A stretch of DNA of 64,000 nt from Micractinium sp. NFX-FRZ (taxonomy: Eukaryota > Chlorophyta > Trebouxiophyceae > Chlorellales > Chlorellaceae), in assembly GCA_029339195.1 (NCBI GenBank), contig JAPTJF010000087.1:100541-164540 (forward strand). Direction: 5' to 3'. This document shows positions 20,801-63,778 of the stretch, piece by piece. The notes under the pieces were generated by a model. That model saw only the letters and a program-made list of their open reading frames with translations, searched no databases and had not been told where the DNA came from. Position numbers and translations under genes: made by a program. Each line of letters starts with the position of its first letter. Positions within the stretch are counted from its first letter, which is position 1.

Positions 20801-23800
20801 TGGGTGGGGCCTGGGAGTGTGCATGGAAAGCACGCGGCAAAGCTGCCATTGGAGGCCATCTTTCAGTGACAAAGTAGCCGTACCGGCAGCCACAGCGGCA
20901 GGCCCCATCGCACCCACCCCGCCAGCCCCAACCACTCAGTCCCACCCTGCCCCCGCCCCGCCACACAGCATGCTCACGCCCACGCCCACGCCATCCGCCT
21001 TCCCACTCCGCCCCCGGCCTCACCGCTGCGCGCGCGCCACGAACGGCTCCCCCGCCGGCCCGCCCATGCTCAGCTGCTGCTTGAACACGGTCAGCGCCAG
21101 CTCGCGCAGCAGCGCCAGCTGGCACTCAAACAGCGGGCGCACCAGCCCCTCCAGGCTCTCCACCAGCTCCTCACGCTTGGCCTCGCTCACCGCCTTGTCA
21201 AAGTAGCGCGCCTCCTCGTCGTACCCTGCACCAAACAGCAATATACGAGAGCCATGTTGTGCAATAAAGAAAGGAACGGACGCCTCCGTCGGCTCCTCGC
21301 GCTTCACCTTGCTCACACCCTTAGAGCCTGCACGACTCTGCCCCCGCTGGCTGTGGGAGCCTCATCCACCCTCCAGGCACACAAGTCCCCGAGGTCGGCC
21401 GCCCCCTACCCACACCACCTCCAGCCCTCAGTCGCAAATGGACACCCCCACACACCCAGCTTTTGCGCCTCACTCTCAGGCAGGAGATCCATCAGGTTGG
21501 CTGCCCGCTGGCCAGAGGAGGCCCTGCCAGGTCCTGCCAGGTGCTGCGTGGCCTCCTCCCCGCCCCTCAGCCCCCACCCCCCGGGCCCCCACACCAGCCC
21601 CACACCCACCCACCCTCCAGGCACGAGTCCATGAGGTCGGCTGCCCGCTGCCCAAAGGAGGTGGCCAGGTCCTGGGAGGCCTCCTCAGACAGGGTGGCCC
21701 AGGCGGCGTCCCGCCGGAACGCCTCCAGCTGCTCCTCCGCCAGCTCAGCGCACCGGATGTTGGCCACCATGACCTGAGGGGGAGGAGGAGCAGAGGGAGG
21801 AGGAAGGGGGGCGTGAATTGATCTGGAGGAAGAGGAACCCAAGGGGGTGTGTGAAGGCAGGGGGGCGCAGAGAGCTTCTAGAAAGCAAGGGGCTGCAGCG
21901 CGCTTGCACCACCTCCCGCACCCACTTCCTCCCCCTCTTGCTGCCGACTGCCGGCACCAACAACCAGGGCGCTGGCTGCCCGCTCGCTCACTCACCCGGT
22001 GTGCCGGCAGGTTGAGGTCCTTGTGCTCCCGCACCACCTCCCACACCTTGCCCATGCTCAGCGCCAGCGCGTGCCCCGGCAGCTTCTCGTCGCTCTGGCG
22101 CAGGAAGCTCTCCTCCTCATCTGGGGTGGCGTGTGGAGGTGTGCAGCAGGCGGTGGCGGGCGGTCGACGTGGGGCACGGCATGCATGCATCCATGTGACC
22201 ATGTGGGAGCAGCACTGCTCACAAGATGCCCACACGCACTCCACGCGGCACCAACGCCTCTTACATGCACATACACAACTCCTCGGCACACAATGCACCG
22301 CTCACCGGCCGGCATCAGCACTGACCTTGCATGGCGGCACAACAAACCCCCACCCCAGCCACAGCAGATGCTAAGCCGCTCACCCGCCCGCCCGCGTCCG
22401 TGCTGAACTTGCGGCGCGGCAGCACCGCCTCTGCCAGTCACCCCTCCCCCAGCATACAATTCTCACCCGCGTCCGCGCTGAACTTGCGGCGCAGGATGAC
22501 CGCCTCCGCTGCAAAGTCCTCCCCCCGATCCTCGTAGTTGGACAGGGCGGCGTACTGCAGCTCAAAGAAGTCGTGCAGGCTGCACCCCTCGTACTGCAGG
22601 GGGGGGGGGCAGAACACAGAAGAGTTGGATAAGTGTGCATGACTTGAGTGAGTGCTGTAGCTCCGTGAAGTCGTGCAGGCTGCATACTGCACTGGGCACA
22701 CAGTGGGGCGGGGCCCGAGGGCGGGTGCCCAGGAGACCCAGAGGCAGCAGAGCAAAGGAAGCAGGCAGGGCACGCAGACAGGCGGCACGGCGCGCCTCTT
22801 CTGGTCGCGATGCAAGCCGCAGAGACCAGGCGGTGCGCATGCACAAGTGAAAGCGCACACCCTCTCAGCTAGCCCCGGCAAATGTGCACAACACGCATGC
22901 ATCTGCGCACACAACCTCACACCTGCGGCGGCTTGGCGATGCCGTCCCACATGCGCCCCAGGTCCGCCTCCCACGTCTCACACAGCTTCTCCAGCGGCGT
23001 GCGCGTGCGGTCACGGAACACAAACAGGAGCACGGTGCGCCGCCGGTTGGGCGCGGGCTGCGGGCGGGGCGGGGACAGGCGGGGGGCAGGGAGTGGAAGT
23101 GGGAGCACAGCTGGGAGAAGCCGGACCACAGGCGCGTGGCCGTGCACCTTGCACCGAGTCCGAGCTCAGCCTGACAGCGAAGTGCTCTGCCATCCCGCCC
23201 CAACTGCGCACGCTCACGCACAGCATACACAGCACACATTTTCCCCACCCACCATTGGCGCCTGTCCTCCTCGGCTCCCCCTACTGTTCACAGAGAAGGC
23301 TGGAGGCTGACCTGGGAGATGGCCTTGAGCAGCCACCAATGCCCGCTCCCCACGTCACCATCCCACTCCCCTGGTTCACCCCTCCAGCACCCAAGCACAC
23401 AAACAAGCAAGCTGCTGTGCGAGGCCTGTCCTTCCCACCTGGAAGAGCTTGAGGTTGACCTGGAAGATGGTCTTGAGCAGCGGCTTGCCCGCGCCGCTCT
23501 CCCGCCCCACGTCCTTGGCCCACATGTTGACCAGCACGATGTCTGCCACCGCCAGCGCAAAGAGCGCGGACTGGCGCTCAAAGGAGGTGTCGTCCTCGCC
23601 CCGCTCCCGCCCATCCGACCCCTCCAGGTCCATCACCAGCGTGGTGGGTGCTGCCACCTTGGCGGAGCGCGCCAGCCAGATGCCGCGCGTCGTCTGGTGC
23701 CGCCCCGTCAGCGCGTCCATCTCCTCAAACCGAGTGCCAAACTGCAGGGGGTGGCAGGCACGGGGTTTCTGGGTGCCTGGGGTCTTTATGGGATTGTGTG

Positions 23801-24343
23801 TGTATATGCCAGCGCATCCATCTCCTCGAGCCGCGTGCCAAGCTGCAGGTGAGCACGGGCCCGGCAAGGGCAGCTGGTTTACTACTGAGGAGTAAAGGCA
23901 CATCTCTTCAACTGCACGTTAGATTAACGCACAGTACGAGGTCAGGGATGTTGGGGGTGGAGTGGTGGTGTGCCCTGGCCCAGCCGCAAGGCCGCTGTGG
24001 CCGCCAAACTCGTACCTCTGGCAGCTGGGTGCTGTCGCCCGGTCCTTCAAGCCCCGGCTCGGTCCTCGCTCTCCACAGCCCCTCCTTTCCTCTTGCACTC
24101 CCCCCGTTCCCCACCATCCCTTCCTCCTTCTCTTCCCACCAAGAACAGCAGATCGAATCCCCTCACCAGGTGGTTGAGCAGGGTGCTCTTGCCGGAGGAC
24201 TGGGGCCCCATGATGGCCACCACGGTGTACCCCACGCCAGAGCTCTCCACCCCCGTCTCCTTCACAAACGCATCCACGCCCTGCACGTTGAAGCTGCCGT
24301 CGCCGGAGACGACCTGCAGGATACCGTTGCTGTCGGCCGCCAT
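17832..24343 (-). CDS. SEY1: SEY1/RHD3-type dynamin-like GTPase of the endoplasmic reticulum
   Basis: Thirteen exons run from ATG 24341-24343 to TGA 17832-17834: about 24343-24167, 23741-23439, 23059-22923, 22596-22469, 22120-21998, 21776-21615, 21226-21023, 20759-20627, 20302-20178, 19943-19767, 19490-19090, 18717-18547 and 18190-17832 (about 865 residues). The protein fuses ER tubules by GTP-driven dimerisation. Seen: P-loop [14 protein letters not shown], switch motif [25 protein letters not shown], and the Arg-Asp base-recognition motif [16 protein letters not shown] typical of this family. A long helical bundle follows. Exon 12 carries the ER membrane hairpin ([17 protein letters not shown], then [16 protein letters not shown]). 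The tail is Ala- and Arg-rich with ERRRRGGDD. The gene diverges from NOP58. Five introns hold copies of neighbouring exon edges (see repeats). Confidence 0.95.
21477..21558 (-). repeat. Intronic copy of the end of SEY1 exon 6
   Basis: It resembles 21617-21685, the exon end encoding [11 protein letters not shown]. The stretch GGCTGCCCGCTG and the flanking CCAGGTCCTG and GGCCTCCTC blocks are shared, with small indels (about 85% in the first 44 bp). It lies in the next intron. Confidence 0.75.
22391..22435 (-). repeat. Intronic copy of the end of SEY1 exon 4
   Basis: It matches 22466-22510 at 38 of 45 positions by eye. The parent encodes the RRKFSADAG exon end; the copy would read RRKFSTDAG. 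Confidence 0.85.
22659..22684 (-). repeat. Intronic copy from the start of SEY1 exon 4
   Basis: It matches 22559-22584 at 23 of 26 positions, including the 17-bp block GAAGTCGTGCAGGCTGC. It lies in the intron just upstream of the exon. Confidence 0.75.
23301..23332 (-). repeat. Intronic copy of the end of SEY1 exon 2
   Basis: It matches 23449-23480 at 28 of 32 positions. The parent encodes [10 protein letters not shown]; the copy would read [10 protein letters not shown]. It lies in the following intron. Confidence 0.8.
23808..23848 (-). repeat. Intronic copy of the start of SEY1 exon 2, with acceptor
   Basis: It matches 23707-23747 at 35 of 41 positions, including the CTGCAG acceptor. The parent encodes [12 protein letters not shown]; the copy would read [12 protein letters not shown]. 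It lies about 100 bp upstream of the true acceptor in intron 1. Confidence 0.9.
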
Positions 24344-25391
24344 GCTTGCGGGGCTGGCGGCGGGGAGGTGCGGCGTGCGCCTCGGGGGAAGCAGCGGCGG
24401 GTGCTGGCGGTAGCGGCGGTGCTGGCGGTAGCGGTGGGTGCGGCAGAAAGCGGGCCGGGCTGCCTGCGATCCGCTGTAAGCAAGGCGGTGTGAGATGCGA
24501 GGCTGTCTGGAGCTGTAGGCCTGGCGAAGGGAGCCGGCTTCAAGCGGAGGCTTGAAGGGTGCGAGCCGAGGACCAATGCGGAATCAAGGGGCGGTTGCCA
24601 GGTGATCCCGATCCCCAGAGGAGCACGAGGACGCCAGCCAGCCGCGATCTGGCGCCACCAAGGCGGCAACTTGTGCCTCTGGGAAAGGGGACGACTGCAA
24701 CGCCGCTGAGGTTGCCAGAAACAGAGCACCGAGGCTTGGACTCACGGTGTCGGCCCGCCAATTGACGGCAACTTCTTTCACTCCGCCATCTCAGCACCGC
24801 CTCGCTGGCAAGTGGCCAACATTTCCCCCTGCCCCTTTGCGCCCAGCATCAAGCAACGGCGTGGTCAGGCTATCTAGACGGGTGTGGACAGCTCCCCAAG
24901 TAGCATCGCCCGCTCCACAACCCCTCGCTCAGCGGCGGCTCCACCGTTCCGGTGAGTGCTGCAGGCAGGCGCTGCGTGCGTCGAAGGATGCGTTTATGCG
25001 CGGCTCACGCTGGAAACAGCTTGCATGCTGCTGCGGGGTGCATGCATGGCGGCACGCTGCACCGCCTGTGCCCCTGCTTCCTGCGCGCAGCAGCTGTGCA
25101 GTCCTGCAATGGGAGGCGGGCAGGATGCGGCATGCATGCGATACAGCCCTTCCTGGCCCACGGCCACTGCCGCCCGCCTGTTTGCTGCCGTCGACACCTC
25201 TTGCGCCTGCTGCCAGCCTCAGCAGCCTGCCCAGCTCTGTTCCCTGGGCCTTCTCCCCATGCTGTCACACTGGTTCATTCCAGTGCAAGCCACCAGCTGC
25301 CTGCTTGTTCCCAGCCCACCTGCCGCTGACCCTGCTCTCCCCTGCCCTCGCTGCTGCTGCTGCAGCTCGTTCAGACACAGCAGCAGGCGCC
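24344..25391. other. Divergent promoter region of SEY1 and NOP58
   Basis: This is 1.05 kb between two opposed start codons. A long open frame crosses it on the plus strand (from 24747) but has no conserved content and runs through NOP58 introns, so it is taken as chance. CTGCTGCTGCTGCAG at 25353-25367, 24 bp before the NOP58 ATG, looks like a splice acceptor and may end a 5'-UTR intron. Confidence 0.5.
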
Positions 25392-28300
25392 ATGCTGCTT
25401 CTGTTTGAGAGCTCTGCGGGCTTTGCCCTGTTCAAGGTGCTGGATGAGGGGAAGCTGAAGCAGGCGGAGACGGAGGTGCGTGGGGCAGGACGCCGGGGCC
25501 GGAGCTACACAGGCTGCACCGAACGCCGCTGCTGCACTGTTCACGGCATGCGGGCTGGGTGGGGTTGCCGGCCACCCATGCCCGGATTGAAGCGCACACC
25601 ACGTGCTGCATGCATGCGTGCGTGGCACAGCAGTGTGCCGAGTTCTTGCCATGACCACGTCATGGCAACGTGGTCATGGCAACAGCTGCAGCCAAAACGG
25701 CATACCAAAGCTGCTCAGGCGCCAGCGGCGACTGCTCCCTGTCTGCCCGCCAGCCTGCGCTTCGCTCACATTTATGTGCCTGGACTGTTTGGCCTGCAGG
25801 ATGTGTGGACCGACTTTGAGACGCCGGAGAAGGCCTCCAAGGTGTGTGTGTGCGTTTGTGTGTGTTTGTGCACATGCCCGGCTGGGCAAGGAGCGGCAGC
25901 ACAGGCCGGACATGCGGCAGTCCTGGCAGCACGACGGCCGGGCACGTTGCAGCACAGGCCTCACCACCTGCTTCCTCACCATTGCCCTGTGCCCTCTGCC
26001 CGCACGGACCGGCCGCCGCCGCAGGTTGTGAAGCTCAAGGCGTTTAGCAAGTTTGAGAACACGACCGAGGCGCTGCAGGCGGCTGCCTCCCTGGTGGACT
26101 CCAAGATCAGCAAGGGTGGGTGCGGGGCGGGCGGGCGGAACGCAGCGAATGTTTGCTGGGCTGCTGTTGCTCAGGGAGGTCGGTTGGTGCAGGAAAGGCT
26201 GCACGGCTCGCGCATGCATATGGCAGGCCGCAGCACGCATCTCTGCCTCTGCTGCAGCCCAGCCTGCCGGCCTCCTCGGCAGACAGCAGCCCTCGCTGGC
26301 TGCCCTCCCTGCTGCCCGTCCCGCTCACACACCCACCGCAACCCCCTCCCTCTCCTGCCGCAGGCCTGAAGAAGTTCCTGAAGAAGCACGCCGAGGGCGA
26401 CACGCTTGCCGTGCTGGACGCCAAGCTGGGCAACGTGATCAAGGAGAAGCTGGGCATCAACTGCCTCTACAGCTCTGGCGTCATGGAGCTGACGCGCGGC
26501 ATCCGCAACCAGCTGACCTCCCTGGTGGCTGGGCTGAGCGCTCAGGACCTGCGCCCCATGTCCCTGGGCCTCTCCCACTCCCTCTCCCGCTACAAGCTCA
26601 AGTTCTCGCCCGACAAGGTGGACACAATGATTGTGCAGGTGAGAGGAAGCCTGGGTGGGACGGGGTAAAGGAAGTGAGAGAGGAGGTAGCAGGTTACGGC
26701 TGCAATTTTGCTTGGGTCGTGACGCATATGTGAAGCCGTGGGCACCATGCGTGTGTCCGCTCTCCATGCGTGCTCCCCACCACCCCTCCCCGCTCCAATG
26801 CACCCACCACCCCTCCCCGCTCCAATGCACCCACCCCCCCTCTTTTGACTCATCTGATCCCTCCCTCCCCCTCCCAGGCCATTGGCCTGCTGGATGACCT
26901 TGACAAGGAGCTCAACACGTACGCCATGCGTGTGCGCGAGTGGTACGGCTGGCACTTCCCCGAGATGACAAAGATTGTGTCCGACAACATCGCCTACGCC
27001 AAGACCGGTGCGTGGGTGTGCTGTGCGCCGTGGTGTGTTGTGTGTAAAGGCGGGTCGGGAGGGAGGGGGAGGCAGGAGGGGTTGCGCAGTTGCGTGGGGT
27101 GGGCAGGGCGGCGGCCCCTCACCTTTGTGCCTGGCCTGCCCACCTCCAGAACCCTCCCCCTCCCACGCAGCCAGCTGGCAGCCACGCACGGCACAGCCCG
27201 ACTCCCTTTGCTTGCCCTGCTTACCCGCCACCCACCCCACCCTTTCCCCCCTGCCCTGCCTCCGCTGCAGTCAAGCTGATGGGCACGCGCGACAAGGCTG
27301 CCGACATCGACTTCTCCGACTGCCTGGAGGAGGAGGCGGAGAGCCAGCTGAAGGAGGCGGGTGAGCGGGGCAGAGCGGGGTATCTTAGGTGGAAGCGCAA
27401 TGTGTTGAGCCCGGGAGGCGTCATGCATTTGGGCAGAGGGCTGCTAGACCGGGGATGTGTTTGAAGGCTGGGGTGGAGGGCCAGCTGAGGCGGGCCGGGC
27501 GGGTTGGGCATGGCGGGGCAAATCGTGTGGGGGCTACATGAGGCTGCAGGGAGGCGCAACAGAGGCAGGCTCTCTACCCGCTCTCCTGCCCAACCTCTCC
27601 ACCCTCTCCACCCTGTCTCCTGCCTCTCCTCCTCACTCTCGAAGTGCCCCCTGCCCTCCGCTGCTGCAGCCATGGTGTCCATGGGCACGGAGATCAGCGT
27701 GGACGACGTGAGCAACATCCACAACCTGTGCGACCAGGTCATCGCGCTGTCAGAGTACCGCGCGCAGGTCAGGAGGGGCCAGGCTGAGAGATGAGGCTTG
27801 GGGTTGGGGGCTGGGATGAGGGGTGAGGGCCGAGCCCGTGCCCCAGCAGCTCCATGACTACCTCAAGTCGCGCACGACGGCGGTGGCCCCCACCCCCTCA
27901 CGAACCCCTGCACCACTCTGCAACCTCCCACTCAGCGCTCTCTCCCTTTGCTTCCTTCCTCTCTACAGCTCTACGACTGCCTCGAGGCGCGCATGACGGC
28001 GGCGGCCCTCAACAATCATGTTTTCACTCACCAATGCTCTGTCCCTGCTCTCTCCCTTCCATCCTCCCTGCCTGCAGCTGTACGACTACCTCAAGTCGCG
28101 CATGATGGCCGTGGCCCCCAACCTGACGGTGCTGGTGGGCGAGCTGGTGGGCGCCCGCCTCATCGCCCACGTCGGCTCCCTCATCAACCTCGCCAAGGCC
28201 CCCGCCTCCACCATCCAGATCCTGGGAGCGGAGAAGGCGCTCTTCAGGTGGGCTGGGTGGGCTGTGCCTGTGCCTGTGCCTGTGGCTGCGTGTGGTGGGT

Positions 28301-30169
28301 GGCTGGGTGGTTGGCTGGGTGGGTGGGATCAAGGGGTGGCTCTGTGTGCAGCGTGTTTGGGACTGGGCGCGCGGCGAGCAGCGCTGCGCTGGCCCGCAGC
28401 CCGGCCCGCGAGCTCCCCCTGCGCAGGCAGCACGAGCGCCCCTGCGCCCCACCCTCTCCGCCGGCGCCACCCTCCCTGCCGCCCCTTTGTGCCCCACCCT
28501 AACCCGCGCTGTCCCCCCCCGGGTCTGCCCGCCCTCCTTGTGCTTTCACTTGCAGGGCGCTCAAGACCAAGCACGAGACCCCCAAGTACGGGCTCATCTA
28601 CCACGCCTCCCTCATCGGCCAGGCGCCGCCCAAGCTCAAGGGCAAGATCTCTCGCGTGCTGGCCGCCAAGTGCGCGCTGGGCGTGCGCGTGGATGCGCTT
28701 GGAGACGTCAGCGACGAGGGCGCGGTGGGGCTGGCGTCGCGCGCAAAGGTGGGCGCAACGCGGTCTTGTTGTTTTGGAGCCCGGTTCCATGTGCCGAGTT
28801 CTGGGGTGTGCGTGGCCGGGGGGCCACTTGGGGCAAGAGGCGCAGCAGGCTGCCTACCGAGCGCCCTGCCCCTGCTGCGGCCCCCGCTCCTGCCCTGCAC
28901 GCCCGCCCCTGCGCGCGCTCCTTCACCGCTTGCACCCCGGCCCGCATGCACTCTGCACACACGTGCACCACGCCCCTGGCAGAACTGGGCGCCTTGTTGC
29001 TAGGCGCAGACCAGATTTGAACGGGGGCCACAGCAGACCCAGGGTGCCCAACCTCCGTGGACGGGTAGAACAACGCATGCACCTGATCCCTCAATGCGGC
29101 ACCCACACCCCCTCCCATCTCTCTCCACATACACACACGCACACGGCACAACCACCTTGCGGGTTGTCCCTACCTCGCACCCCATTGCGGCCTCCTTGCT
29201 ACCTCGCCCTGCCTTGCCCACGCACCGCCTTGCCCCTCCCTCAACCACAGCCCCGCTCGGTACCGCACCCATTCCCACAGGTTGAGGCGCGGCTGCGGCA
29301 GCTGGAGGGCAAGCAGGTGGGCGGCGAGTCGGTGAAGCCGCGGGGGCTGCCGTCTGCTGAGAAGTACGAGGGGGCGCGGGCGACGGGCGGCAGCGACGGC
29401 GCGCTGCTGGGCAAGGGCAAGGCGTACGACGCGGGCGCTGACGTGGCGATGGGCGAGGCGGCAAACGGCGGCGAGAAGAAGAAGGAGAAGAAGGAGAAGA
29501 AGAAGAAGGTGGGCAGGGTTGTGTGTTGGAGTTGGTTTGCAGCAGTGGGTGGGGTGGAGGGGTGGGGGACCCTGGGAGCCACCTTTGTCTGGACAGCGCG
29601 CGCGCCTTTTGCCCCTGCAGACAAGCCAGGCCTGGCCGCCTCAAGTTGAGCCGTCCTGCCTGCGCCGGCGCCTGCAACTGCCTGTGCTGCTGCCGCTGCA
29701 CGCCTACCTGCCTCCCCTGCTGCCCCTCACCGAGTGCCTGCCTGCCCGCCTCATCCATCTTCCCTTCGTGCAGAAGGAGGAGGCGGCGGCAGAGGAGCCT
29801 GCGGTAGAGGAGGGGGAGAAGAAGAAGAAGAAGAAGAAGGCAGCGGCGGTGGAGGAGCCTGCGGCGGAGGAGGGAGAGAAGAAGAAGAAGAAGAAGCGGG
29901 CAGCGGAGGAGGAGGCGGCGGCAGACGGCGCAGCAGACGGCGAGAAGAAGGTGGGCGGGCTCGGGTCGCTGGCGGCTGCTTGCTGGCACTGCCGGTGCCG
30001 TGCATCTGCTTGTGGTGGCGGCAGCAGCAAGCCTGCATGCATGTGGGTGCTGGGAGAGGGAGGCACTTGTTATTGGGTCGCTGTGCTGGCCCAGGCCCTG
30101 ACCGTGTCCCTGTTTGCCCTGCCTGGCCTGCTGCAGAAGAAGAAGAAGAAGAAGAAGGCTGACGAGTGA
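25392..30169 (+). CDS. NOP58: NOP58, core protein of box C/D snoRNPs
   Basis: About a dozen exons run from ATG 25392 to TGA 30167-30169 (about 540 residues). NOP58 pairs with NOP56 on box C/D snoRNAs in the nucleolus and guides fibrillarin in rRNA 2'-O-methylation. The start [20 protein letters not shown] and the blocks [37 protein letters not shown] and [20 protein letters not shown] match plant NOP58 rather than NOP56. The Nop domain reads [19 protein letters not shown] and [20 protein letters not shown]. The tail is repeated K/E-rich blocks (GEKKKKKKK), as usual in this family, coded by GAA/GAG repeats at 29470-29520, 29760-29950 and 30136-30158. Intron 7 holds two partial copies of the next exon, and intron 1 holds a perfect hairpin. 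Confidence 0.96.
25646..25682. repeat. Perfect 15-bp inverted repeat with a 7-nt loop in NOP58 intron 1
   Basis: Arms TTGCCATGACCACGT (25646-25660) and its exact complement (25668-25682) flank the loop CATGGCA. It could fold in RNA or mark a small mobile-element remnant. No box C/D or H/ACA motif could be assigned. Confidence 0.85.
26780..26834. repeat. 27-bp tandem repeat in a NOP58 intron
   Basis: Two units of about 27 bp, each carrying CCACCCCTCCCCGCTCCAAT, form the pyrimidine-rich region just upstream of the acceptor of the exon that starts AIGLLDD. Confidence 0.7.
27850..27893 (+). repeat. First intronic copy of the NOP58 exon-8 start
   Basis: Compared with the true exon at 28078-28121, about 38 of 44 positions agree, with an AG just before it. 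The copy would read [14 protein letters not shown]; the real exon reads [14 protein letters not shown]. Confidence 0.9.
27969..28014 (+). repeat. Second intronic copy of the NOP58 exon-8 start
   Basis: About 38 of 46 positions agree with 28078-28123, preceded by its own CTACAG acceptor and pyrimidine tract. It would read [16 protein letters not shown]. With the first copy and the real exon it forms a row of three. Confidence 0.9.
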
Positions 30170-36900: not shown

Positions 36901-38118
36901 CCCGCCAGCTCCTGGATCTTGGTCTCAGCTGCAGGGGGAGGGGCAGGGCAGGGGAGGGCAGCAGGCACGCGTTCAGGTTGCCAGCAGCCAGGGCCAATCA
37001 AGCAGGGGCTTGCGACACAGCTCTGCGGCCACAGCATGAGTGGCACAGTTGCGATGATGGGCTTGCATCCCAACAACAGCAACTGCGTGCATTACACAGC
37101 ACCCAACCCCTGCCGAGCGCACCCCCCACACACCTGTGGCACCGTCCTTGCTGCGTGTCAGCTGCGCGCTCATGCCCTTGTCACACAGCTGGCGGAACTG
37201 CTCTTCATCAAACAGCTGGATGGCCAGCTTGGTCAGCGCCTGGCAGTCGAGGGGCGCCGCCGCCTCAAACACCACCCCTGCCATCGCCTGCCCGCCTGCC
37301 AGCGAGGGCCGCACGCTCTCCCGTTTGAGCGACTCTAGCCGCGCCGCCAGGCCGCCCACACCGACGCTACCTGGGCCGCTGGGCAACGGTAGGGAGGAGG
37401 CTGGTCCAGGCCCGGGCGCAGGGGCATCCTCGAGCACCATCGGCTCCTGGCTGCCGCTGCATGCCGGTACAGCACCTGCTGGTGCGGAGCCTTGAGCTGG
37501 TGCTGCCGGCGGTTCCGGTTCCGGCTGCTGCTGCTGCTGCTGCTGGCGTGGTGCCGCAGCCAGCGGCGGCCGAGTTGTGGTGGCCGTTGCTGCTGGCTGC
37601 GTGGCCCGTGCAGCCGCTGTCGCCGGCTCGGGCGCCGGCCGGCTGGTGGCGCACGCCTGCATGGCGGCCGAGCCGCGTGCTGCCGCCGCCGCTCCCACGC
37701 CGCCTGCGCCGCTGATGGAGGGGCGCATGCTCTCCCGCTTCAACGCCTGCAGCTTGCCCTGCAGCACGTCAAACTCCTGCAGCATCTCCTGCTGCTGCCC
37801 CCCGTGGGCAAAGGCCTTGCGGATGCTGTCTGGCGCGGGCGCCGCCGGCCCCGCCGCCCCGCCAACACCGCCTGCAAAGCCGCCGCCATGCCCTCCAACC
37901 GCGTTCTCCTTATCCACTGGCGCCGCCCTGGCGGCCAGGCGGGGAGGGAGGCCAGGAGCCGGCTTTGCAACTGCGGACAGCTGTTGACGGCTGCTGTTGC
38001 CATTTGTGTGCGCCTGGCCGCCCGCCAGAGGTGCTGGTCTGCCAGCTGCGGCCGCCTCTGCCGCTTTCTTGGCCTTCCAGGCCGCCAGGAGGCTTTCCCG
38101 GCTCGCTGCCGCCGACAT
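30936..38118 (-). CDS. Kinesin-14 with C-terminal motor domain
   Basis: About nineteen exons run from ATG 38116-38118 to TGA 30936-30938 (roughly 1,180 residues). It should be a minus-end-directed microtubule motor. The N-terminal third is low-complexity Ala/Pro/Gln with two similar motifs ([12 protein letters not shown] and [12 protein letters not shown]). Coiled coils coded by exons near 36930-34130 follow. The neck ends LVELKGN and joins the motor at [12 protein letters not shown], the layout of kinesin-14. Motor motifs are P-loop [10 protein letters not shown], switch [10 protein letters not shown], switch [12 protein letters not shown] (Ser split by an intron), then [20 protein letters not shown] and [10 protein letters not shown]. 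Motor residues are about 790-1130. A short basic tail with [15 protein letters not shown] and IPRPRLG follows. No MyTH4 or FERM domain was seen, so it is not KCBP. Confidence 0.94.
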
Positions 38119-52100: not shown

Positions 52101-54829
52101 CAGTTACCTGGAAACGAAGCGGATGCGCTCTAGAGGAAAAGGGTCTGCAGCAAGCGGACAAGGAGGGGAAAATTGGAAGATCTGCTCATCAAACAGGCCG
52201 GCCGGCAGACTGCCCCGCCCCGCCTAGGCGCAAGCAGCGGCACACTCAGCATGGGCACTTTGCTAAGCACTACACTTCGACCTGGAGCCTGACCAGAGCG
52301 GCTAGGCATTGCAGCGTCCCCATAACATACCCACCCAGGAAGGGCCGTCCCACCCGGTGCAAGCCTTCTCCCGCCCCTTCTTCTTCATGGGGACTCCGCC
52401 ACACACGGCCGCCCTGGCCAGGCTACTCACAAGCCTGCTCCCCTCGCCCTCCCCCACAACCTCCCCCACTCACTGCTCCCGCTGGGCACGGCGTTCTCGC
52501 CGTAGATGTAGGCATCCAGGGTGCCCGCTTGTGAGGCAACCTGCACGCCGCCGCCCCCGCCAGAGGGCAGCACAGGCACCTCTGGCGTGCGCAGCCCCAG
52601 ATGCGCCGCCTGGCTCAGGGACTCCTCTGCCGCGGGTGAGAGGGGGAGGAAGCCGGCGGGGCCGGGGCCCTGCAGCCGCCTGCGCCCCTCGGTGGAAAGC
52701 CGCTGCTGTGCCTGCTGTGCGCGCTCTTCTGCGCCCAGCAGGCGCCGCCCCCGCCGGGTGGCGGCGGGGCGCGTGAGCTGCGGCGCCCGCGCAAAGATGC
52801 GCACCCACTGCCCCACGCGAATGCCGGCCGTCGTTGCCAGCACCAGGCGGCGCGCCCCCCTGACTGTGTCCTGTGTTATGTTGCTGATCAGGTACTGTGG
52901 GTGTGTGCTGTTGATCTCTGGACCCACAGTTGTGAGGAAGCCGCCCGACCACTGCCACTCCATTCTGTCGCCTGCACGCGAGGGAGGCGGGGGCAGGGGT
53001 GGGAAGCGCAGCGGGTGGGGGTGCCAGCATGTATGCACCACTCACTCTTTGCTGGCGTCCGTTGCTCGTTCGGAGTGATGTGCACACGCTAGCAGAGCGG
53101 AGCAAAAGCTTGCACTGCGGCGGCAGCGGCTGCCCTTGTCGTGCATTTGCAGAGGCGGCTGGGATAACCGAGCAAAGCATGCACAGCAGCAGGGCTGCTG
53201 CATACCGTAGCTGTGCACAGCAGGTTTGGCAAGGTTGCTGTGGCACAGCTCACCATAGATGCGTTTCAAGCCATGAGGGAAGAAGAGTGTCGTGCGATTC
53301 ATCTGTGGAAGGGTCAGAAGAAGCCAAGAGCGGGCCTTAGAGAGGGGCATGTGCCTCTTGAGGGTGGCCACTTAGCCACTGCCTTCTGCAGCAGCAGCAT
53401 GCTGCTGGCACAGCCACAGGCAGCGCACTGACCGGTAGGTGCTCCTGAGCTGTCACGGGTTCGACCAGCAACAGGCAGCAGGACAGCAAAGCCGGTGTGC
53501 TGAGGGCACACATCTCCCCGCAGCACCACACCAACAGGAGGTGCACCAACCGATGCTGCACTCACCCCCCGCCTGCCGCATCACCACATTGCTCTGCATG
53601 CCCAGATGAGCCCCGTGCTATACCTCCCCTCCTCACCACATTACACACTCACCCACACTTGTGCGCTGCATGACCGCCACATTGCTCTGTGCCAGCTCAG
53701 CCCTCCTCCACCTCCCTCCTTCCCCCTCCCCGCCTCCCTGCCCACACGGAAGCGCAGCAGTGTGTGCTCACCCCCGCGCCCTTCAACGCCACGTTGCTCT
53801 GCGTCAGCTCCAGCATCCGGGTGATCTTGTACAGCCCGGACGGCACAAATACAGTCACGCCCGCCCGCCCGTTGTTGCCAAAACCTGTGCCCCCGGGCTT
53901 CTGCACGTGGGGTGGGTGGACGGCGGGTGGACGGCGGGTGGGGGACGGGTGAGATGCGCTTGCGAGGGGATAGAGACGGCTACAGTTACGAGCGCAAGGG
54001 GGGTGGGGGCTGACTAGGGTGCCACGGGTACACGTTGCAAGTGCCCGCCCAGAGCAGCACAGCCAGAGCAGCAGAGCCAGGCCATCGCGCTTGGTTCCCA
54101 TCCAGCTCACAGCTGCCACTGCACACACCCGGCTTGCCCCCCTGGACTCCCACTGGGCAGCGCCCACAAGCCAGCCCTTACAGGAGCCACCCCAACCCTG
54201 AACACCACTTGGGCCCCCGCTCGCACCGGGCAGCGCCCGCGGGCCACCGGATTGATCGCGCTGGGGGGCGGCGGGTTGGGGCAGGGGTTGGTGGTGAGGT
54301 TGTAGGCGGCAGCCGAGGCGGCACGGATGGCGGCCAAGAAGGCTTTGCTGTCGTCGGTCACACCGTTGCCTGTGGCCCCGTAGCTCCGGACATCAAAGAC
54401 GGCCTGGGTGTAGCTGGGGAGGCGGGGGGAGCCGGCTGCACAGGAGGGTGGGGGGAGGGGAAAGGCGGTGGGGCGGGCGAGCGGGCGCGGGCTGCCAAGC
54501 GTGGGGGCGCAGAGAGCGGGCGCCGAGAGCTGAGCCAAACACAACCGCAGCGTGCTGCCTGAGCTGCCAGGCACAGGTCTGGAAACAAACCCACGTCCGA
54601 GCAAGCATGATAGGCCAGGGGCAGATGGAGGAGGCAGCGGCGGGAGGTACGCACCGCCGTAGCCGGCATAGCTCCAGTCCGCCAGGCGCCCGGTGGGCCT
54701 CCACAGCTCTCCATTCTGCCCCCACAGCCTGCTGGTCTGCGCAACACCGCTAGTGGGTGCAGCCAGCAGCAGTGCCGCCAGGAGGGCAACGGCCGCCGCC
54801 GGCAGTGCCGCCGCCAGGCGCCGGCACAT
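49114..54829 (-). CDS. Secreted pectate-lyase-fold (right-handed beta-helix) protein
   Basis: About thirteen exons run from ATG 54827-54829 to TGA 49114-49116. Residues 1-30 are a signal peptide (hydrophobic core AAAVALLAALLLAAP). Exon 2 reads AVFDVRSYGATGNGVTDDSK, the typical opening of Pectate_lyase_3 domains, and exon 3 gives GVTVFVPSGLYKITRMLEL then NVALKGAG. Later exons contain EWQWSGGFLTTVGPEINSTH, VEGMNGFYTAGAANCWVRN, VHIINADQGAQAINSEFVTF and repeated beta-helix turns ending NNLWSNIQ and NNTWWNIQ. A 160-residue Arg/Ala/Gly-rich insert lies in exon 5 (52972-52475), and the C-terminus is Pro-rich ([13 protein letters not shown]). Such proteins are often extracellular polysaccharide lyases or hydrolases, but I cannot assign catalytic residues. 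A wall or matrix role is inferred. Two introns hold exon-edge copies. Confidence 0.82.
52046..52090 (-). repeat. Intronic copy of the acceptor and start of the exon encoding VTRIGRNWIELE
   Basis: It resembles 51961-52005, which spans the true acceptor at 51994, at about 28 of 38 positions, with TCAGTTGCGC and TTTGCAG kept. It lies just upstream in the same intron. Confidence 0.65.
53585..53700 (-). repeat. Two intronic copies of the exon-3 end of the pectate-lyase-fold gene
   Basis: Copies at 53678-53700 and about 53585-53611 carry CCACATTGCTCTG, as in CCACGTTGCTCTG of the exon at 53789-53813. They would read QSNVAV and QSNVVM for the real QSNVAL, and each is followed by a GTGAG donor-like site, as in the parent. 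Confidence 0.75.
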
Positions 54830-55427: not shown

Positions 55428-55451
55428 GAGCATCGCCCCTGGGCGATGCTC
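55428..55451. repeat. Perfect 11-bp inverted repeat, 2-nt spacer
   Basis: GAGCATCGCCC, then CT, then GGGCGATGCTC. The two-base spacer makes it nearly a palindrome, so a dimeric DNA-binding site is as likely as an RNA hairpin. Confidence 0.85.
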
Positions 55452-55902: not shown

Positions 55903-58900
55903 ATGCAGGCAGCCGCGGTGTGCCAACGCCTTCAGGGGCGCGCCTCACATGTGCAGCACCGGCGCGCGGGCGGCAGCAGCGGTCGGCGGGCAGCGGCGGC
56001 GCGGCGGCAGGTGGCGGTGCTGGCCGACGCACGGGTTGCCAACAAGCAGCTGCTTGAAGTGGCTCAGACCGCAGCCGCCGCCGGAGCCAAGGTGAACAAT
56101 GGGACAAAATGTGTGTGCGTTACTGGGGTGTGCAGTCTGATACGCTGCCGTGCGTTGCCAGGAATGCACTGCGCCAGCGAGCGCCGGCACCGCTCCTTCC
56201 CAAGGGTGCCAACGCCCATGTGGCTGTTGCGTACTTCATAACGCACGACCCTTGCCATCCAAGTGCACATCTCGTGATGGAAGCCATCGACCATCCAGCT
56301 CAGTTCTGGGAACGGGCGCCACCAACTCGATGATTGCCGCCTAGGCATGCGCGCGCCCCCAGCCAGATGCCGACTCGTTCCCCGCTTCCCCCTCGCCTGC
56401 CCTGCTCAACCTGGTGTGCTGGCCGACTGCAGATCGTGATGGAGGCGGTGGACCGCCCGCGCACAGTGCAGTACAAGGGTGCCACTGACCTGGTCACTGA
56501 CACCGACACCGCCAGCGAGGCGGCCATCCTGGCGGCCATCCAGGCGGCCTTCCCGGGGCATGCCGTGCTGGGGGAGGAGGGCGGCGTGTCGGGTGAGCGG
56601 CGGGGGTGGGGGTTCAGCAGTATATGACGTGAATGTTCTAGGCTCGGGGTGGCACGCTGTGCTGGGGGAGGAGGGCGACGTGTCGGGTGAGCGGCGGGGG
56701 TGGGTGGATCAGCAGTTGTGGTGCCGTCAGGGTGTCCAGGTGGCCGGGTGTGTTCCGGGGGGCAGAGGGTGCTGGGGAGGGGGGCGGGGAGGCTGGCAAA
56801 TGAGCGCCATTCTGTTGTGCTTTGGGGTTGGTGCTACAGGCAGTGGAGGCAGGCGGCGTGGCGGGTGGTCAATTGCTGCAACATTGTGCATTTGATATGT
56901 GGCGTCAGGTGCTGGCAGGGGCACTCTGTGCTGGGGGAGGGGGGAGGGGCGGCGTGAGTGGGAGCAAGGCAGAGCGGGGCATGTGGGAGGCTGTGGTGGC
57001 AAAGCATCCCCCCGCACCGCCCACCTGCCTCCAAGTGCCTCACCCCTGCACCCAATCAACCGCCTGCCCTGCCCCAGGCGACACCAACAGCGAGTACCTC
57101 TGGTGTGTGGACCCCCTTGACGGCACCACCAACTTTGCCCATGGCTACCCCTCCTTCTCCGTCTCCGTCGCCGTGCTGCGCCACACCACACCCGTGGCCT
57201 CCACCGTCGTCGAGTTCTGCGGCGGCCCGGGCAGCTGGCAGACGCGTACCTACACAGCGGCGCGCAACGGAGGCGCCTACTGCAACGGCAACCCAATCCA
57301 GGTTCGGTGGGTGGTGGGGTGGTGGCAGTGGGCAGGCGGTGGGAGTCGCGGTGGCTGGATGGAAGGGGGTCAGAGGTCGAGGGCGTGCAGGGCAAGCGAC
57401 CCAGGACTGCGAGGGGGTGGGCAGGGCAGGCTGGAGGGGCCGAGGCCGGCTGGCGGCAGCGGCAGCAGCTGGTGCAGCGTGCGGTGCACTGGACGCACCT
57501 TCCCGCTCCCCCTTCCAATCCAGTTCTGCTCCAAGCTGCCCTTTGCTGCGGGTCTCCCACACCCATGATCTCCGGGGCTGACCGGGCAAGCTACTCTACT
57601 AATCCCACCCCTTTGCTTGTGTTCCCCCTGCTTGTGCCGTTCAACAGGTGTCCCACACCCACGACCTCCAAAAGTCGCTCCTGGTCACCGGCTTTGGCTA
57701 CGAGCACGACGAGTGCTGGGAGGCCAACCTGCGCCTGTTCAAGCACTTCACTGATGTCACCCAGGGCGTGCGGCGGCTGGGGTCGGCGGCCGTGGACATG
57801 TGCCACGTGGCCAGCGGTGTGTGCGTCACCTGAACCTGCTCATCTGTCTGCCTGCCTCAGTCTTCCTGTCGTGTGTGGGGTGTGGGCTGGGGTCGGCCGC
57901 TGCGGAACATGCGCCACGTGGCCAGCGGTGGGTGCATCACTCATCTCCACTTATCTTTTTGTCTGCCTCAGTCTTCCTTGTCATGATGGGGGCTGGGGTC
58001 GGTCGCTGTGGGACATGGGTGCAGCCTGCACCTCGTGACCAAGTGCTAGCATGCAATATCAGTGTTGGCAACTTGACATGTGCAGGCATGGTGGACGCGT
58101 TCTGGGAGTACCGCCTGAAGCCGTGGGACATGGCTGCCGGCGTGCTGGTGGTGGAGGAGGCGGGGGGCAGCGTCACCACCATGGACGGACGCGCTTTCTC
58201 GGGTGGGTGGGTGGGTGGGTGGGTGGGGTGCCGGGGGTGTGCGGCACCCGGCGCCTGCGCCGTGCAGAATGCTTGCCTGCTTGCATACATCGTACAGTGT
58301 ACGTGCCTGCCTGCCGGCCTGCCGGCCTGCGGCTGGCCGGGGTGCACTGCCGATGGGCACCAGCGTAGAAGGGCACAGAGCACCCACCCCGGCCTACTCC
58401 GCTCCAGCAGCATCCTGCACCCGGCCACCATGCTCCCCCATGTCCCGTCTACCCCTGGCCTTCGGTCTCCCTTTCCCTCCTGCAGTGTTTGACCGCAGCG
58501 TGCTCGTATCCAACGGCTTCCTGCACGAATCCATCATGGCCCAGACGGAGCCCGCCACCGCCAAGCTTCAGAAAGATGGCACCGACCTCTCCCAGTGGTT
58601 TGTGCCAAAGGTGGGTGCTGGCATGCCGCCAACGCAGGTCGCGGGCAGGCGGGGGGGGTGGGAGGTTAAGAAACGCGGTATCCTGCAACAATGGCTTGCG
58701 CCCAAGATGGAGGCTCTCGCCCTCTTGCTCTTCCTCTCGCCGTGCCTGCCTGCGTGTGTGGGGAGGTAGGTTGGCATGAGACAGGGGGGGACTTTGGCCT
58801 CTCCAATGGTGGGTGCCGCCAGTTGATGGGTGCTGACAAGTGGCATGCTTCCAGGCAGCAGGCCGGTGTGTGGGGGGAGTGTACACGTGTGGACACATGG

Positions 58901-59446: not shown

Positions 59447-62400
59447 ATGCACGCCCCGCCGAGGGCCTCAGGCGGGCCCCTGCGGGCCTGGGCAGGGGGA
59501 CGGCGGGCACGGCAGCTGATGCTGCCGTTGCTGCTTCTTATACTGCTGTTGGTGATCAATTCGCGAAAGCCGCCGGCCCCCGTCAGGGGTACTGCACCGG
59601 CTTCAAAGGCTGGCACAGCGGCGGGGCTTACCGCGGCCGCATCGGGGCTTTTGACAAGCAGGAATGAGTCCGCATTGAGTGCAGGTAAGCGAAGCAGGGC
59701 AGGTCAGCTCCACCCACCAACTTCTGCTGCTGCCGCCGCCGTCGCTGCCAGCGGCAGCCGGTGTCGTGGTTCGCTGTCGGGTTGCCAATGCCAACCATCT
59801 TCCCTCCATTGTTTTGCAGAGATTCTTATATCCGCTGGCGATGAGGAGCACGAAGCAAAGCTGTGCCAGCCCTGTGCCACAACAGGGCCTGCAGCAGCGG
59901 CAGCGGTGGCAGGAGGAAGCATTGGCGGCGGTGGAATTAGCAGCGGCAGCAGTGCGGGGGTGGGCAGCTCTTATGCGCTAGAGGAGGCAGAGCGCCTGTG
60001 GCACCCTCCCCGCTACTCCACCCACACCTGCATCAACCAGAAGTTTTACGACAACTGGCATGCGTGAGCAGGGAGGGCGAAAATTGTGGGGCGGGAAAGG
60101 CGGGAAAGGGGCCCAACCAAAAGAGTTGCGGCCGTGATTAATGTATTGTTTCTGCGGAAGGGATCACCCATGCGCAGATGTGTGGGTGGGTCGTTGGAAG
60201 GCAAGCATGCTTGCGGCTGAGCAGCAGCTGCACGCTGCACGCTGCGCACACCCGCCTTGCCGCTCACCCACCCAGTGCCCCGATGTGCAGTGCCACCTGC
60301 AAGTTTGACAACCTCTGCCTGAATGCGTCCTCGGGGCAGTTCCAGTATTATGTCGACCCGGAGCTGCCAGGTGGGGCGGGGTAGGGTGGGTAGGTGGGTG
60401 AGGTGGGGGGATATGTGGGCTGGGGGTGAGTTTCCGGGGTGGTTTTTCTGGGCTTACTCTGAGGCTCTTGAGAATTGTGGGGGCAGTTTGGATGTTCATG
60501 AAAAAATCAGGGTTGCAGGTGCGGGAGGGAAACACTAACGTGTGTGCATGCATGTGACGACAACGTGTGTGTGTCATGTGGCGAGAGTGGAGGGGCCCGA
60601 GGTGCGCAGTACAGAGTGCGCTGGCCGGGGGGGTGGTTTGCTTGGGGCAGTACCACGTGGGCCTTGAGCTGCCAGGTGGCCACTCCTTGACGCCTCTGGC
60701 TCTGTGGCGGGCTTCCATTCCAAGCAGGGGCCCTACGCATAGTGTAAACTGCTGCCACGGCTGCGTGGGGACACGCCTGCCTGCTCCTCTTCCTCCCCCA
60801 CCCACCCCCCACCCCTCACTGCAAGGACGATCCCCGGCTCAGTGACCAGGCAGCCTGCCCAACGGCGCACGTGTCCCCTCCAACCACATGCTCTTGTAGG
60901 CTAATCTCTACTTTGCCTCCCCTCCCCTTGCTGCACCACCCCCGCCCTGCAGACATCCCCCTGTTGTACGACGCGGCAGGCCGCCCGATGGCAGAGTTCT
61001 CCAAGCATATGCTCAACACAGGTGGGGCTGGTGGGACTGCATGGTGGGTGCTGGGGGCACCAGTCAGTTGGAGGTCACCCGCTGGTCGTGCCACCATCAC
61101 GGACAAGCAACACCCATGTTGGCCATGTCTTCAAGAGCATCCACCGGCACATGGCCCCTGCACTCCCTCTTCGTCTGCTGAACCCACATCACCAACCGCC
61201 TGCTGTCCTTTGGCCCTTTGTTGGTTGCCCTCGCCCTGCGCAGGCCACGCCCACATGGACCTGGACCTTCACGTGGCCTGGCGCCCTCGGGTGGTGCGCG
61301 CCCCCTTCCCCCGCAAGGGGCGCGCCGTCAAGTGGGCGCCCACCCCGCAGGCCCTGCTCCAGTCCATACCCACCCCGCTGACCACCAACTTTGGGTGAGC
61401 ACGTGCCGCGCTGCGCTGCGCTGTGCGGTGCGGTGCTGTGCTGCGTCGTGCTGTGCTGCTGGGCACACCATGTCAGGAGGTGTGCGTCCCGCTCCCTGGC
61501 ACCCAGTCCCTGCCACCCGCCACCTCCCCCTTCTTCCCAGCCCCTTCGTGTTGTGCTCGCACACAAGCATGAGCTGGTCATGGTTGCAGGATACGCTGGT
61601 CCCGCTCCCTTGCACTCGTTGCCTGCAAACCCTGATCTCACTCCTGCTGCCCCCTGTCCCGCCCCCGCCCTGCCCGTGCGTGCAGCCACGTCATGTTTGA
61701 TGTGCTCGTCCCGCTCTTCAACATGCAGCACCTGTTTGGTGTCTACACCCCAAACGCTCAAGTGCTGATCCTCAAGGTCAGAGGGGGGAGGTGGGGGATT
61801 GAGGGGTCAACAGTGCTGTCCCCACTGCTGATCCTAAAGCTACGGTGGGTGGATGTGTAAGCAGGGGGACCGGGGGGGGGGCAGCTGTGTGGGGTGCCAC
61901 GTGGCAGCCATGCGCCCTACCTCGAGCCACCCCTTGGCGCTGCGTTGTTGCTGCCGTTTGCAGGCCTTGAACGGCACCGAGGCGGAGCTGCGTGCCGCCC
62001 TGCCCGCCCTCATCAACACCCCAAACCCCGACATGAGCCTGCTGCACCTGAGCTGGGACCACGATGCGCAGTGGGTGGGCGAGTACGCGCGGCGCCAGCT
62101 GGGCGGGCGCTCCGCGGGGCTGGTGTGCTTCAAGGTGCGGTGGGTGCCAGCCGGTGGAGGGGTGTGTGTGCGTTGGTGGGTGGGTGGGTGAGCGGCGAAG
62201 CGTGTGCGGTGCCAGCTGCGGGGGCGCTCAGAGAGGCAAGGTGCGAGCGGGCTGTCATGTCCAAGTTGGGTGCTGAACTGTCATCTCTTGGGTGCTGAGC
62301 TGCCATGTCCAAGTTGCTGCTCAGCCGCGTCGGCTGTCGCCCCCATGCTGTTTTGACTGAGAGGTCTGCACTGCATCAAGTTGCCCGCTGTTGGCGCGCA

Positions 62401-63778
62401 CCTGTACCGCACCCACATGCACCTGTGCACGCGTGCGGCCCCCGGCTCCTTGCAGTCTGTGCTGGCGGGCACTGGCTACCTGAACCGCCAGATGTCCCCG
62501 CTTGACGCGCTGCCCTACCGCACGGCCGTGGTGCGACATATCGGGCTGGAGGAGGCGCCACAGGCGCGCCCCGTCATCACAATCCTGAACAAAAAGGTGG
62601 GCCTCTCTCTTGCGGCTGCTGCCTGAGGTGTTTGCACACACACACACACACACGATTCTTGGTTTGTTGAATGCGTGAGAGCACCGCTGTGGGCTGAGGA
62701 GCTGCCGCACCTCACCTCGCCTGGACTCCTGGGTGTGCTGCAGCGCCGGTGCATAGTTGAGTACACCTTCACATCACGCCACCTGATTTCATGTCACCTC
62801 ACCGCACCCTCTTGCTTGCAAATAGCGAAGGGAAGGCGCACGGTTGAGGACAGCTCACGCCTTGCTTCAATTCACTTCACTTCCATGTCTCATCTAATGT
62901 TGTGTGTGTGTGTGTGCTGCAGGGTCGGCGCATGATTGAGAACAGCAGGGAGATCCAGGCGGCGCTGCAGGTGCGCACGGTTTTCAAACAAGTACACCAG
63001 AGCTGGTGGACGGTTTGTTTCCCAGAAATACGCGGTGTTCTCGGCTATGCATGCGTCTGCGGCGCACCTTGTCCAGCTCCTGCAGCCCTGCGCCGCGCTC
63101 TGCTTGCACAGCAGCGTGGGGTCAGGGGTGTGGTGTGAGCCAGCCCAGCGCCAGGGCTGCATCTGTTTTGTGGCTGTAGCTCTAGCTTACCCCCCACCTT
63201 AGCCGGACCCCCTCACACGTAGCGCCGCCGCTGCCCGCACACGCGTGCCCCCTCCCCTCCCTCCCTCCCTGCAGGCGCGCTTCCCCCTGGCCCGTGTCGA
63301 CATGTTCGACTTTGGGGAGCACCCAAACATGACCATGCCGGAGCAGGTGGGGGGTGGCAGGCTGCCTGCCCAGAGGGGCACGACGGTGGGAATCGTCCTG
63401 GGGTTGTGCTGAGGCACATGCCCGGCACCTTCATCATCCTGCTATGCCCGCCGCAAGCTCCCAAACCGCCAGGTTTCACCGCTTCCCATGATACAGCCAT
63501 GTCAATTCCACTCGCCGCAGGTCCAGCTGATGTCAGACACCTCCATCTTGGTCACCCCCGTGTGGCCACCTTGTTGTTTTGTACCTATCAACAACCTGCA
63601 CGCACCTGCCCCGCCGCAGGTCCAGCTGATGTCAGACACCTCCATCCTGGTCACCCCCTGCGGCGGCCTGGCCACCGTGCTGGCCTTCATGCGCCCCGGG
63701 GCCACCGCCATTGCCATGAACTACTGGCACACGGGCAACGGCAGGAGCATGCAGCTGGAGGACAACTATTACCAGTGA
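59447..63778 (+). CDS. GT61-type glycosyltransferase, type II membrane protein; 3' end uncertain
   Basis: At least eleven exons run from ATG 59447: about 59447-59683, 59819-60065, 60274-60370, 60952-61020, 61244-61394, 61686-61776, 61964-62133, 62455-62595, 62922-62969, 63275-63346 and 63620 onward. The N-terminus is basic, then LMLPLLLLILLLVI, a Golgi signal anchor. A Gly/Ser stem follows, then CSATCKFDNLCLNASSGQF, HVMFDVLVPLFNMQHLFGVY, SVLAGTGYLNRQM and, near the end, VQLMSDTSILVTPCGGLATV, which matches the acceptor/nucleotide region of the GT61 (DUF563) family. It probably adds a sugar to wall or secreted glycans. The last exon either ends at TGA 63776-63778 or splices at the overlapping CCAGTGAGCC into an exon outside the window. 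GT61 proteins usually run slightly further. Confidence 0.82.
61823..61839 (+). repeat. Short intronic copy of the GT61-gene exon-6 end
   Basis: About 14 of 17 positions agree with the exon end at 61760-61776 (the codons for VLILK). It stands about 45 bp into the intron. Confidence 0.6.
62206..62229 (+). repeat. Intronic copy from the exon-7 end of the GT61 gene
   Basis: 21 of 24 positions agree with 62089-62112 (the codons for RRQLGGRS). The following AGGTGCG echoes the real donor at 62133, with part of the exon end deleted between. Confidence 0.8.
62248..62328. repeat. Tandem repeat in GT61-gene intron 7
   Basis: GCTGTCATGTCCAAGTTGG and GCTGCCATGTCCAAGTTGC flank related TGGGTGCTGA blocks. 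This is a two-unit array of about 45 bp, purely intronic. Confidence 0.7.
62825..62853 (+). repeat. Intronic copy of the exon-9 start of the GT61 gene
   Basis: It resembles the exon start near 62921-62949 (the codons for GRRMIENS). The copy would read GRRTVEDS, with about 18 of 23 positions kept. The offset is about 100 bp. Confidence 0.65.
63513..63575 (+). repeat. Intronic copy of the last-exon start of the GT61 gene, in frame
   Basis: From CGCCGCAG onward 45 of the first 46 positions match 63612-63657; then a few bases are missing. The offset is 99 bp with no stop between, so use of the copy's acceptor would add 33 residues. Confidence 0.95.

Follow-up and report, generated by a model that had tools for sequence, protein, structure and literature searches.

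Internal gene duplications in eukaryotes, some of them holding exon-intron boundaries, were reportedly described by Gao and Lynch in 2009. As that work is cited in PMC4974935, its duplicated segments contain entire introns. The nearest precedent that we found for the observations below comes from the same source (Ma, Lan and Niu 2016, PMC4974935): in the potato RdRp gene, a tandem duplication crossing an intron-exon boundary gave rise to an additional intron, which uses a cryptic donor. In the model of Rogers (1989, as cited; reviewed in PMC3443670), introns are gained by tandem genomic duplication of segments carrying AGGT, and breaks with complementary overhangs are described as leading to small, sequence-independent tandem duplications (PMC8355091, whose reference list also names 'patch-mediated' duplications in rice). 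Here we describe copies of exon edges that lie within the adjoining introns of protein-coding genes in the green alga Micractinium sp. NFX-FRZ, starting from a window of 64,000 nucleotides (nt) of contig JAPTJF010000087.1 (G000:C87:100541-164540, in a 66.07-Mb assembly of 838 contigs); 'the window' denotes this whole stretch.

In the potato gene (PMC4974935), the duplicated stretch carries 3' intron and 5' exon sequence with splice signals, and the former exon part of the upstream copy becomes intronic. Here, too, copies of exon edges lie in introns, many with their splice signal, and intron sequence beyond it is recognisable in part of the strong cases. Unlike potato, where one gene acquired a new intron, it is existing introns that most likely lengthened here, on both donor and acceptor sides and in about one intron in eight. 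The segments of Gao and Lynch, as cited in PMC4974935, differ in that here the exon part probably turns intronic and decays. The AGGT model, as reviewed in PMC3443670, likewise invokes local direct duplication involving exon sequence, but its signature is not above chance in any intron that we sampled. The duplications of PMC8355091 are a plausible source, being small, direct and in need of no prior repeat; here the spacing is about 110 bp and breakpoints are mostly too old to read.

Exon edges are copied into their own introns

Our sample comprised 254 kb, that is the 64-kb window and 19 ten-kb stretches (190 kb; labels L0xx); each of these covers bases 20001-30000 of a contig chosen by its number, and one of the 19 contigs is the window's own. 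A 50-nt probe from each exon edge was aligned locally (match +1, mismatch -1) to its own adjoining intron only. Before counting we discarded probes of low complexity, those shorter than 30 nt and those at the ends of stretches, which left 842 edges from 500 introns. At a score of at least 17, 65 of these edges (7.7%) have a same-strand copy in their own intron, where the background would supply about 4 or 5; 64 of the 500 introns, roughly one in eight, hold at least one copy. The corresponding control rates are 34/7242 (0.47%) for non-adjacent introns of the same gene, 46/8211 (0.56%) for introns of other genes, 5/842 (0.59%) for the own intron in antisense and 1/842 for the own intron reversed. 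At a score of at least 22, 31/842 edges match their own intron, compared to 1/7242, 1/8211, 0/842 and 0/842 in the same four controls. The excess over matched controls amounts to about 14- to 16-fold at the lower threshold and more than 200-fold at the higher one. An earlier version of the test using 600-bp flanks gave a similar picture (66/909 edges at a score of at least 20, against about 0.35% for other genes and 4/909 in antisense). This confirms that exon-edge copies are real and far above chance. A sequence-only reading of the window had suggested matching introns to their own flanking exons and to unrelated exons, and these rates are indeed unequal, at 7.7% against 0.47-0.59%.

The pattern is spread through the genome and is not peculiar to the window: 18 of 216 edges carry a copy inside it and 47 of 626 in the 19 other stretches (score of at least 17), a similar richness. 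With 600-bp flanks and a score of at least 18, copies are found in 20 of the 20 stretches sampled; the richest is L005 (C8:20001-30000), with 10 of 31 edges, to which repeats within its genes may contribute. The copied stretches match the exon next to them, and introns of other genes match these edges at 0.56% only. Introners (intron-generating mobile elements) would place similar sequence in the introns of many genes; the comparison made here covered exon edges against introns.

Gene models were made ab initio, and some adjacent genes are fused together. The gene finder, a two-strand hidden Markov model seeded on a hand-read NOP58 and trained on the 254 kb until stable, returned 57 gene models with 561 exons and 504 introns (median intron length 238). 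Four copies in the window had been called as exons (21456-21500, 27850-27882, 27969-28019 and 63521-63559); they were masked and the window was decoded again, giving the 500 introns used above. Pfam returned a fitting family for 9 of the 10 window proteins tested, among them RHD3/Sey1, Nop, ResB, Inositol_P, Glyco_transf_61, Kinesin and ubiquitin-L40e; the membrane protein matched no Pfam family, and the hydrolase and Q-rich proteins stood outside this test. The window has a G+C content of about 66%. Across the sample, introns of at least 140 bp are strongly skewed along their length, with 40% G and 26% C on the donor side and 20% G and 44% C on the acceptor side (60-nt zones).

Copies in the genes of the window

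Eight genes had been named in the sequence-only reading as carriers of exon-edge copies. Seven of them do carry copies at a score of at least 17, namely SEY1 (6 edges), NOP58 (1 edge with two copies), CCS1 (3), the membrane-protein gene (2), the pectate-lyase-fold gene (2), IMPL1 (2) and GT61 (2). The eighth, TL15, does not, as no edge reached even 15. The four genes that the same reading had found empty stay so at a score of at least 17, with 0 of 87 edges in total (kinesin 0/37, hydrolase 0/28, Q-rich 0/14 and ubiquitin-L40 0/8; 519-17085 and 30936-37785). At the weaker score of 15, one Q-rich edge matches, as does one kinesin edge once the low-complexity filter is off. Three kinesin matches of the earlier 600-bp-flank list (36232, 35624 and 34294) have offsets larger than the intron, lie outside it and are left out of the own-intron test. 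The gene models and copies are as follows, with fractions giving identical over aligned positions.

17832-24343, minus strand: SEY1/RHD3 gene model with 13 exons; intronic copies counted for 6 edges
23810-23841, minus: SEY1, copy of the 5' edge of exon 23439-23741, 28/32, ctgcag acceptor kept
23295-23333, minus: SEY1, copy of the 3' edge of exon 23439-23741, score 29, outside the filtered list and uncounted
22652-22684, minus: SEY1, copy of the 5' part of exon 22467-22593, 28/33, 9 nt in from the edge
22392-22434, minus: SEY1, copy of the 3' edge of exon 22467-22593, 37/43, GC in place of the donor GT
21473-21521, minus: SEY1, copy of the 3' edge of exon 21614-21773, 42/47
21370-21412, minus: SEY1, second copy of that 3' edge (exon 21614-21773), score 26
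20491-20532, minus: SEY1, copy of the 3' edge of exon 20626-20757, 31/42
18985-19021, minus: SEY1, copy from near the 3' edge of exon 19090-19489, 28/37
25392-30169, plus strand: NOP58 gene model, 12 exons
27856-27895, plus: NOP58, first copy, of the 5' part of exon 28078-28247, 36/40
27969-28013, plus: NOP58, second copy, of the 5' edge of exon 28078-28247, score 29, ctacag acceptor
40305-40326, plus: CCS1/ResB, copy of the 5' edge of exon 40391-40576, 21/22, gtgcag acceptor kept
40721-40756, plus: CCS1, copy of the 5' edge of exon 40852-41037, 29/35
41537-41561, plus: CCS1, copy of the 5' part of exon 41679-41850, 22/24, 15 nt in from the edge
43869-43898, minus: membrane-protein gene, copy of the 5' part of exon 43555-43760, 25/30, 18 nt in from the edge
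43476-43511, minus: membrane-protein gene, copy of the 5' edge of exon 42943-43201, 30/35
52038-52069, minus: pectate-lyase-fold gene, copy of the 5' part of exon 51919-51991, 25/32
53663-53701, minus: pectate-lyase-fold gene, copy of the 3' edge of exon 53772-53900, 31/39
56651-56686, plus: IMPL1, copy of the 3' edge of exon 56433-56592, 33/36, with the gtgagc donor and 25 nt or more of intron sequence included
56918-56956, plus: IMPL1, further copy of that 3' edge (exon 56433-56592), score 21
56753-56787, plus: IMPL1, further copy of the same 3' edge (exon 56433-56592), score 18
57885-57927, plus: IMPL1, copy of the 3' edge of exon 57648-57816, 38/42, GT of the donor preserved, homology on the intron side over up to 90 nt
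57988-58017, plus: IMPL1, second copy of that 3' edge (exon 57648-57816), score 19
62206-62243, plus: GT61, copy of the 3' part of exon 61964-62134, 30/37
63521-63571, plus: GT61, copy of the 5' edge of exon 63620-63774, 46/50, ccgcag acceptor kept, 8 nt common on the intron side

Other repeats lie in the same genes. In 63774-64000 the last GT61 donor seems to be followed by further degenerate copies of itself near 63894 (score 11) and 63965 (score 17), a series truncated by the end of window and contig. A GT61 intron holds a GCTGTGC-type stretch (61403-61459), a dispersed simple repeat: of the 48 matches listed when this region was searched, 43 fall on it, at 76-90% identity and spread over many contigs. 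The TL15 intron region 47471-47703 contains a 31-nt intron-intron repeat (47471-47501, 94%, offset 202) and no exon-edge copy. Short tandem arrays occur in introns of CCS1 (41579-41637; 14-bp unit, 4.2 copies) and NOP58 (26776-26842; 27-bp unit, 2.5 copies, 97%), and the Q-rich gene carries a minisatellite of about 15 units of 39 bp (7067-7656).

Spacing and decay of the copies

The layout is the one that the sequence-only reading had sketched: copies are in direct orientation, those of 5' edges lying upstream and those of 3' edges downstream of their exon, and splice signals (ctgcag, gtgagc) are copied along in many alignments. Edge-anchored copies, starting within 3 nt of the exon edge, make up 44 of the 65, and their offset from the original has a median of 109 bp with quartiles at 88 and 134. 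Serial copies at successive steps are found at SEY1 21613, NOP58 28077, IMPL1 56592 and IMPL1 57816. Identity is graded from 27/27 (L013) and 46/50 (GT61) down to the detection limit, in keeping with the continuing process followed by decay that had been proposed.

Paralogues within the genome allow a comparison at shared introns. A search of the alga's own genome returned a GT61 paralogue on contig C6 and a NOP58 relative on C497, and one scan of viral contigs returned no relatives. The GT61 intron holding the 63521 copy sits at the same codon position in the paralogue, and the two genes are 69/86 identical over the exon head concerned. In the window gene this intron has an acceptor-side copy (score 40) and none on the donor side (score 9); in the C6 paralogue it has a donor-side copy (score 26) and none on the acceptor side (score 11). 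A second common intron (donor 62134 in the window gene, 1929 in the paralogue) has donor-side copies in both genes, which match their own exons at 30/37 and 45/53 and each other at a score of only 8. Each copy thus resembles the exon beside it far more than it resembles its counterpart in the other gene, so that the two look independent. Duplication events thus appear to be specific to each GT61 gene copy. The C497 relative, which we take from its sequence to be NOP56, was dropped as a same-intron comparison: its intron lies at a different codon, and it has two donor-side copies of its own.

Untargeted local duplication as the probable source of the copies

We propose, with a probability of roughly 0.8, that the copies result from frequent local direct duplication that is not targeted to splice junctions. 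Such duplications would arise anywhere in genes, with copies mostly about 90-130 bp apart. Where one straddled a splice junction, the outer junction would stay in use and the inner copy of the exon edge would fall within the intron, leaving the protein unchanged and the intron longer. The intronic copy would then decay without constraint while its source exon would be held by selection. We infer that the founding event is a head-to-tail duplication, arising by slippage or by staggered-break end joining with fill-in; the outer splice sites would have continued in use throughout, and the copies would be neutral. Straddling copies would stand out because they would stay recognisable about twice as long as intron-only duplications.

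Edges were compared to random points (780 of 881 edges retained). At a score of at least 17, copies are found for 57/780 exon edges, 62/1690 random intron points and 20/772 exon-interior points, with an other-gene control of about 0.2%; at 19 and 22 the counts for edges and intron points are 41/780 against 39/1690 and 29/780 against 22/1690. A factor of about 2 between edges and intron points is expected if duplications fall anywhere, because an exon-intron pair has one decaying member and an intron-only pair has two. An all-pairs scan for repeats (1790 raw pairs, 482 after low-complexity filtering, 362 after merging) gave 71 exon-intron pairs and 23 pairs within one intron among local direct repeats with offsets of 60-300 bp. 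From intron and exon lengths and an assumed twofold persistence, 73.6 exon-intron pairs are expected, in a model that leaves out 208 exon-exon pairs, 11 intergenic pairs and offsets above 300. The model fits the offset bins from 60 to 200 bp; pairs at 20-60 bp are mostly intron-only (21/24). Because 71 pairs are observed where untargeted duplication predicts 73.6, junction targeting is unnecessary to explain the number of copies.

Dividing exon-intron pair counts by the available positions per bin suggests that, for as long as a copy stays visible, every 1000 start positions see about one duplication of 60-300 bp. If that lifetime is 0.2-0.3 substitutions per site, a value assumed from the score threshold, there would be roughly one such duplication per 200-300 substitutions. 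Over the same lifetime these events would add about a tenth to gene length unless balanced by deletions.

Several observations weigh against untargeted duplication as the whole account. The rate differs somewhat among genes (simulated p = 0.025, 42 genes), and the ratio of edges to intron-interior points, about 2 at a score of at least 17, rises to 2.3 at 19 and 2.9 at 22. The twofold persistence was assumed and not fitted, and without it the expected number of pairs is 61.8; the count model fails at 200-300 bp, where there are 7 exon-intron pairs and 5 intron pairs; and exon-intron pairs in the scan and the model were counted without requiring that exon and intron adjoin. The intron side of the copies is homologous less often than expected: simulated head-to-tail duplication with neutral decay gives 73% (1240 of 1690 detected), whereas the strong cases give 18 of 39, or 17 of 36 once three poor rows are set aside. 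In two of the freshest copies, GT61 63521 (46/50) and L013 3126 (27/27), the contiguous match on the intron side is no longer than 8 and 5 nt, respectively. Some events may therefore be spaced insertions of a junction fragment.

Alternative explanations

The strongest competitor, which we consider unlikely as the general explanation, follows from these last figures: template switching or templated end joining would copy a junction fragment and reinsert it at a distance of some tens of bases. Intron-side homology was assessed for 39 of the 94 rows of the 600-bp-flank list (score of at least 20, identity of at least 0.8, within 3 nt of the edge), the poor rows being 8480 (from a false gene model on the reverse strand of the Q-rich gene), 27882 and 27968 (both copy against copy), and significance was taken at p<0.05 against random junction pairs. 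The 21 of 39 cases lacking significant homology exceed the simulated share, and the two fresh copies are almost exon-only, with gapped extension giving p = 0.52 for GT61 63521 and p = 0.30 for L013 3126. Some copies may thus be limited to exon edge and splice signal, or the intron side may be lost faster than simulated. On the other hand, several cases have long intron-side homology (57816 and 56592 in IMPL1, L016 3890, L018 5129, L009 9136); it fills most of the offset at L016 3890 and all of it at 57816, although not at 63521 or L013 3126. An intron-only duplication of 88 bp in L015 (5472; 91%) abuts exactly. Templated insertion of the polymerase-theta type is expected to give inverted as well as direct copies, and inverted copies are at background level (5/842 own introns in antisense).

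That the copies are functional, as alternative or mutually exclusive exon ends or as splicing regulators, is improbable. Some keep reading frame and splice signals, and the gene finder called four of those in the window as exons. Against this, identity by codon position is.877/.850/.844 (36 cases), with no third-position excess of mismatches worth noting, and the offsets of the 44 edge-anchored copies fall 17/15/12 modulo 3, with no frame preference. Because neither measure is biased, the copies find no support as retained coding sequence, and we reject a coding function. The GT61 63521 copy is, moreover, missing from the paralogue. Among edge-anchored copies, no more than 10 of 25 retain the donor GT and 11 of 19 the acceptor AG, where base-matched exon-side expectations are 70% (p = 0.002) and 74% (p = 0.10). 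The donor figure hints at, and does not prove, selection against decoy donors, as an alignment that ends up to 3 nt from the edge may stop short of the splice site.

Birth of introns by tandem duplication of AGGT-carrying exon segments, to which the sequence-only reading had linked the pattern, fares worse still and is very improbable for these copies. The model itself is established (review PMC3443670), and direct repeats derived from exons do occur here. Its signature is a match between donor-flank and acceptor-flank sequence at a distance equal to the intron length. No intron out of 495 has it at a score of at least 16 (0.4 expected). Lowering the threshold to 14, 12 and 10 brings the number to 1, 4 and 15, where chance would give 0.4, 2.2 and 10.4. 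There is thus no above-chance sign that introns arise by such duplications among recognisable, that is recent, events, for which we reject intron birth. What was copied is a junction that already existed, and it was copied into an intron that was already there, so that the introns most likely lengthen.

Finally, chance similarity, low complexity in GC-rich DNA or assembly error can be dismissed, in that background makes up about a fifth of own-intron matches at a score of 15 (99/842 against 2.5% in the control) but falls well behind at the higher scores, and divergence is graded in copies present in all 20 stretches.

Discussion

In the open literature, which we covered incompletely for older papers, no title or abstract deals with exon-edge copies across the introns of a genome. 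The genome-wide density of junction-straddling copies seems new, though earlier reports are possible in the older literature.

For intron lengthening, and for the survival of genes whose splice sites are duplicated, inference has usually had to start from rare, single cases. In the present sample, about 8% of the tested splice junctions carry a visible straddling copy of measurable divergence, in which the constrained exon half provides a one-sided clock, with intron-only duplications as a two-sided comparison. Tentatively, a size-restricted duplication of about 110 bp might be a main source of intron length in this lineage, repeatedly presenting the spliceosome with second splice junctions; the exon halves would then be a natural clock for the rate of duplication, for decay and for selection on decoy sites. 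With RNA sequencing and one sister genome, it would become possible to measure directly how often local duplication happens, where its breakpoints lie and how strongly selection acts against duplicated splice sites.

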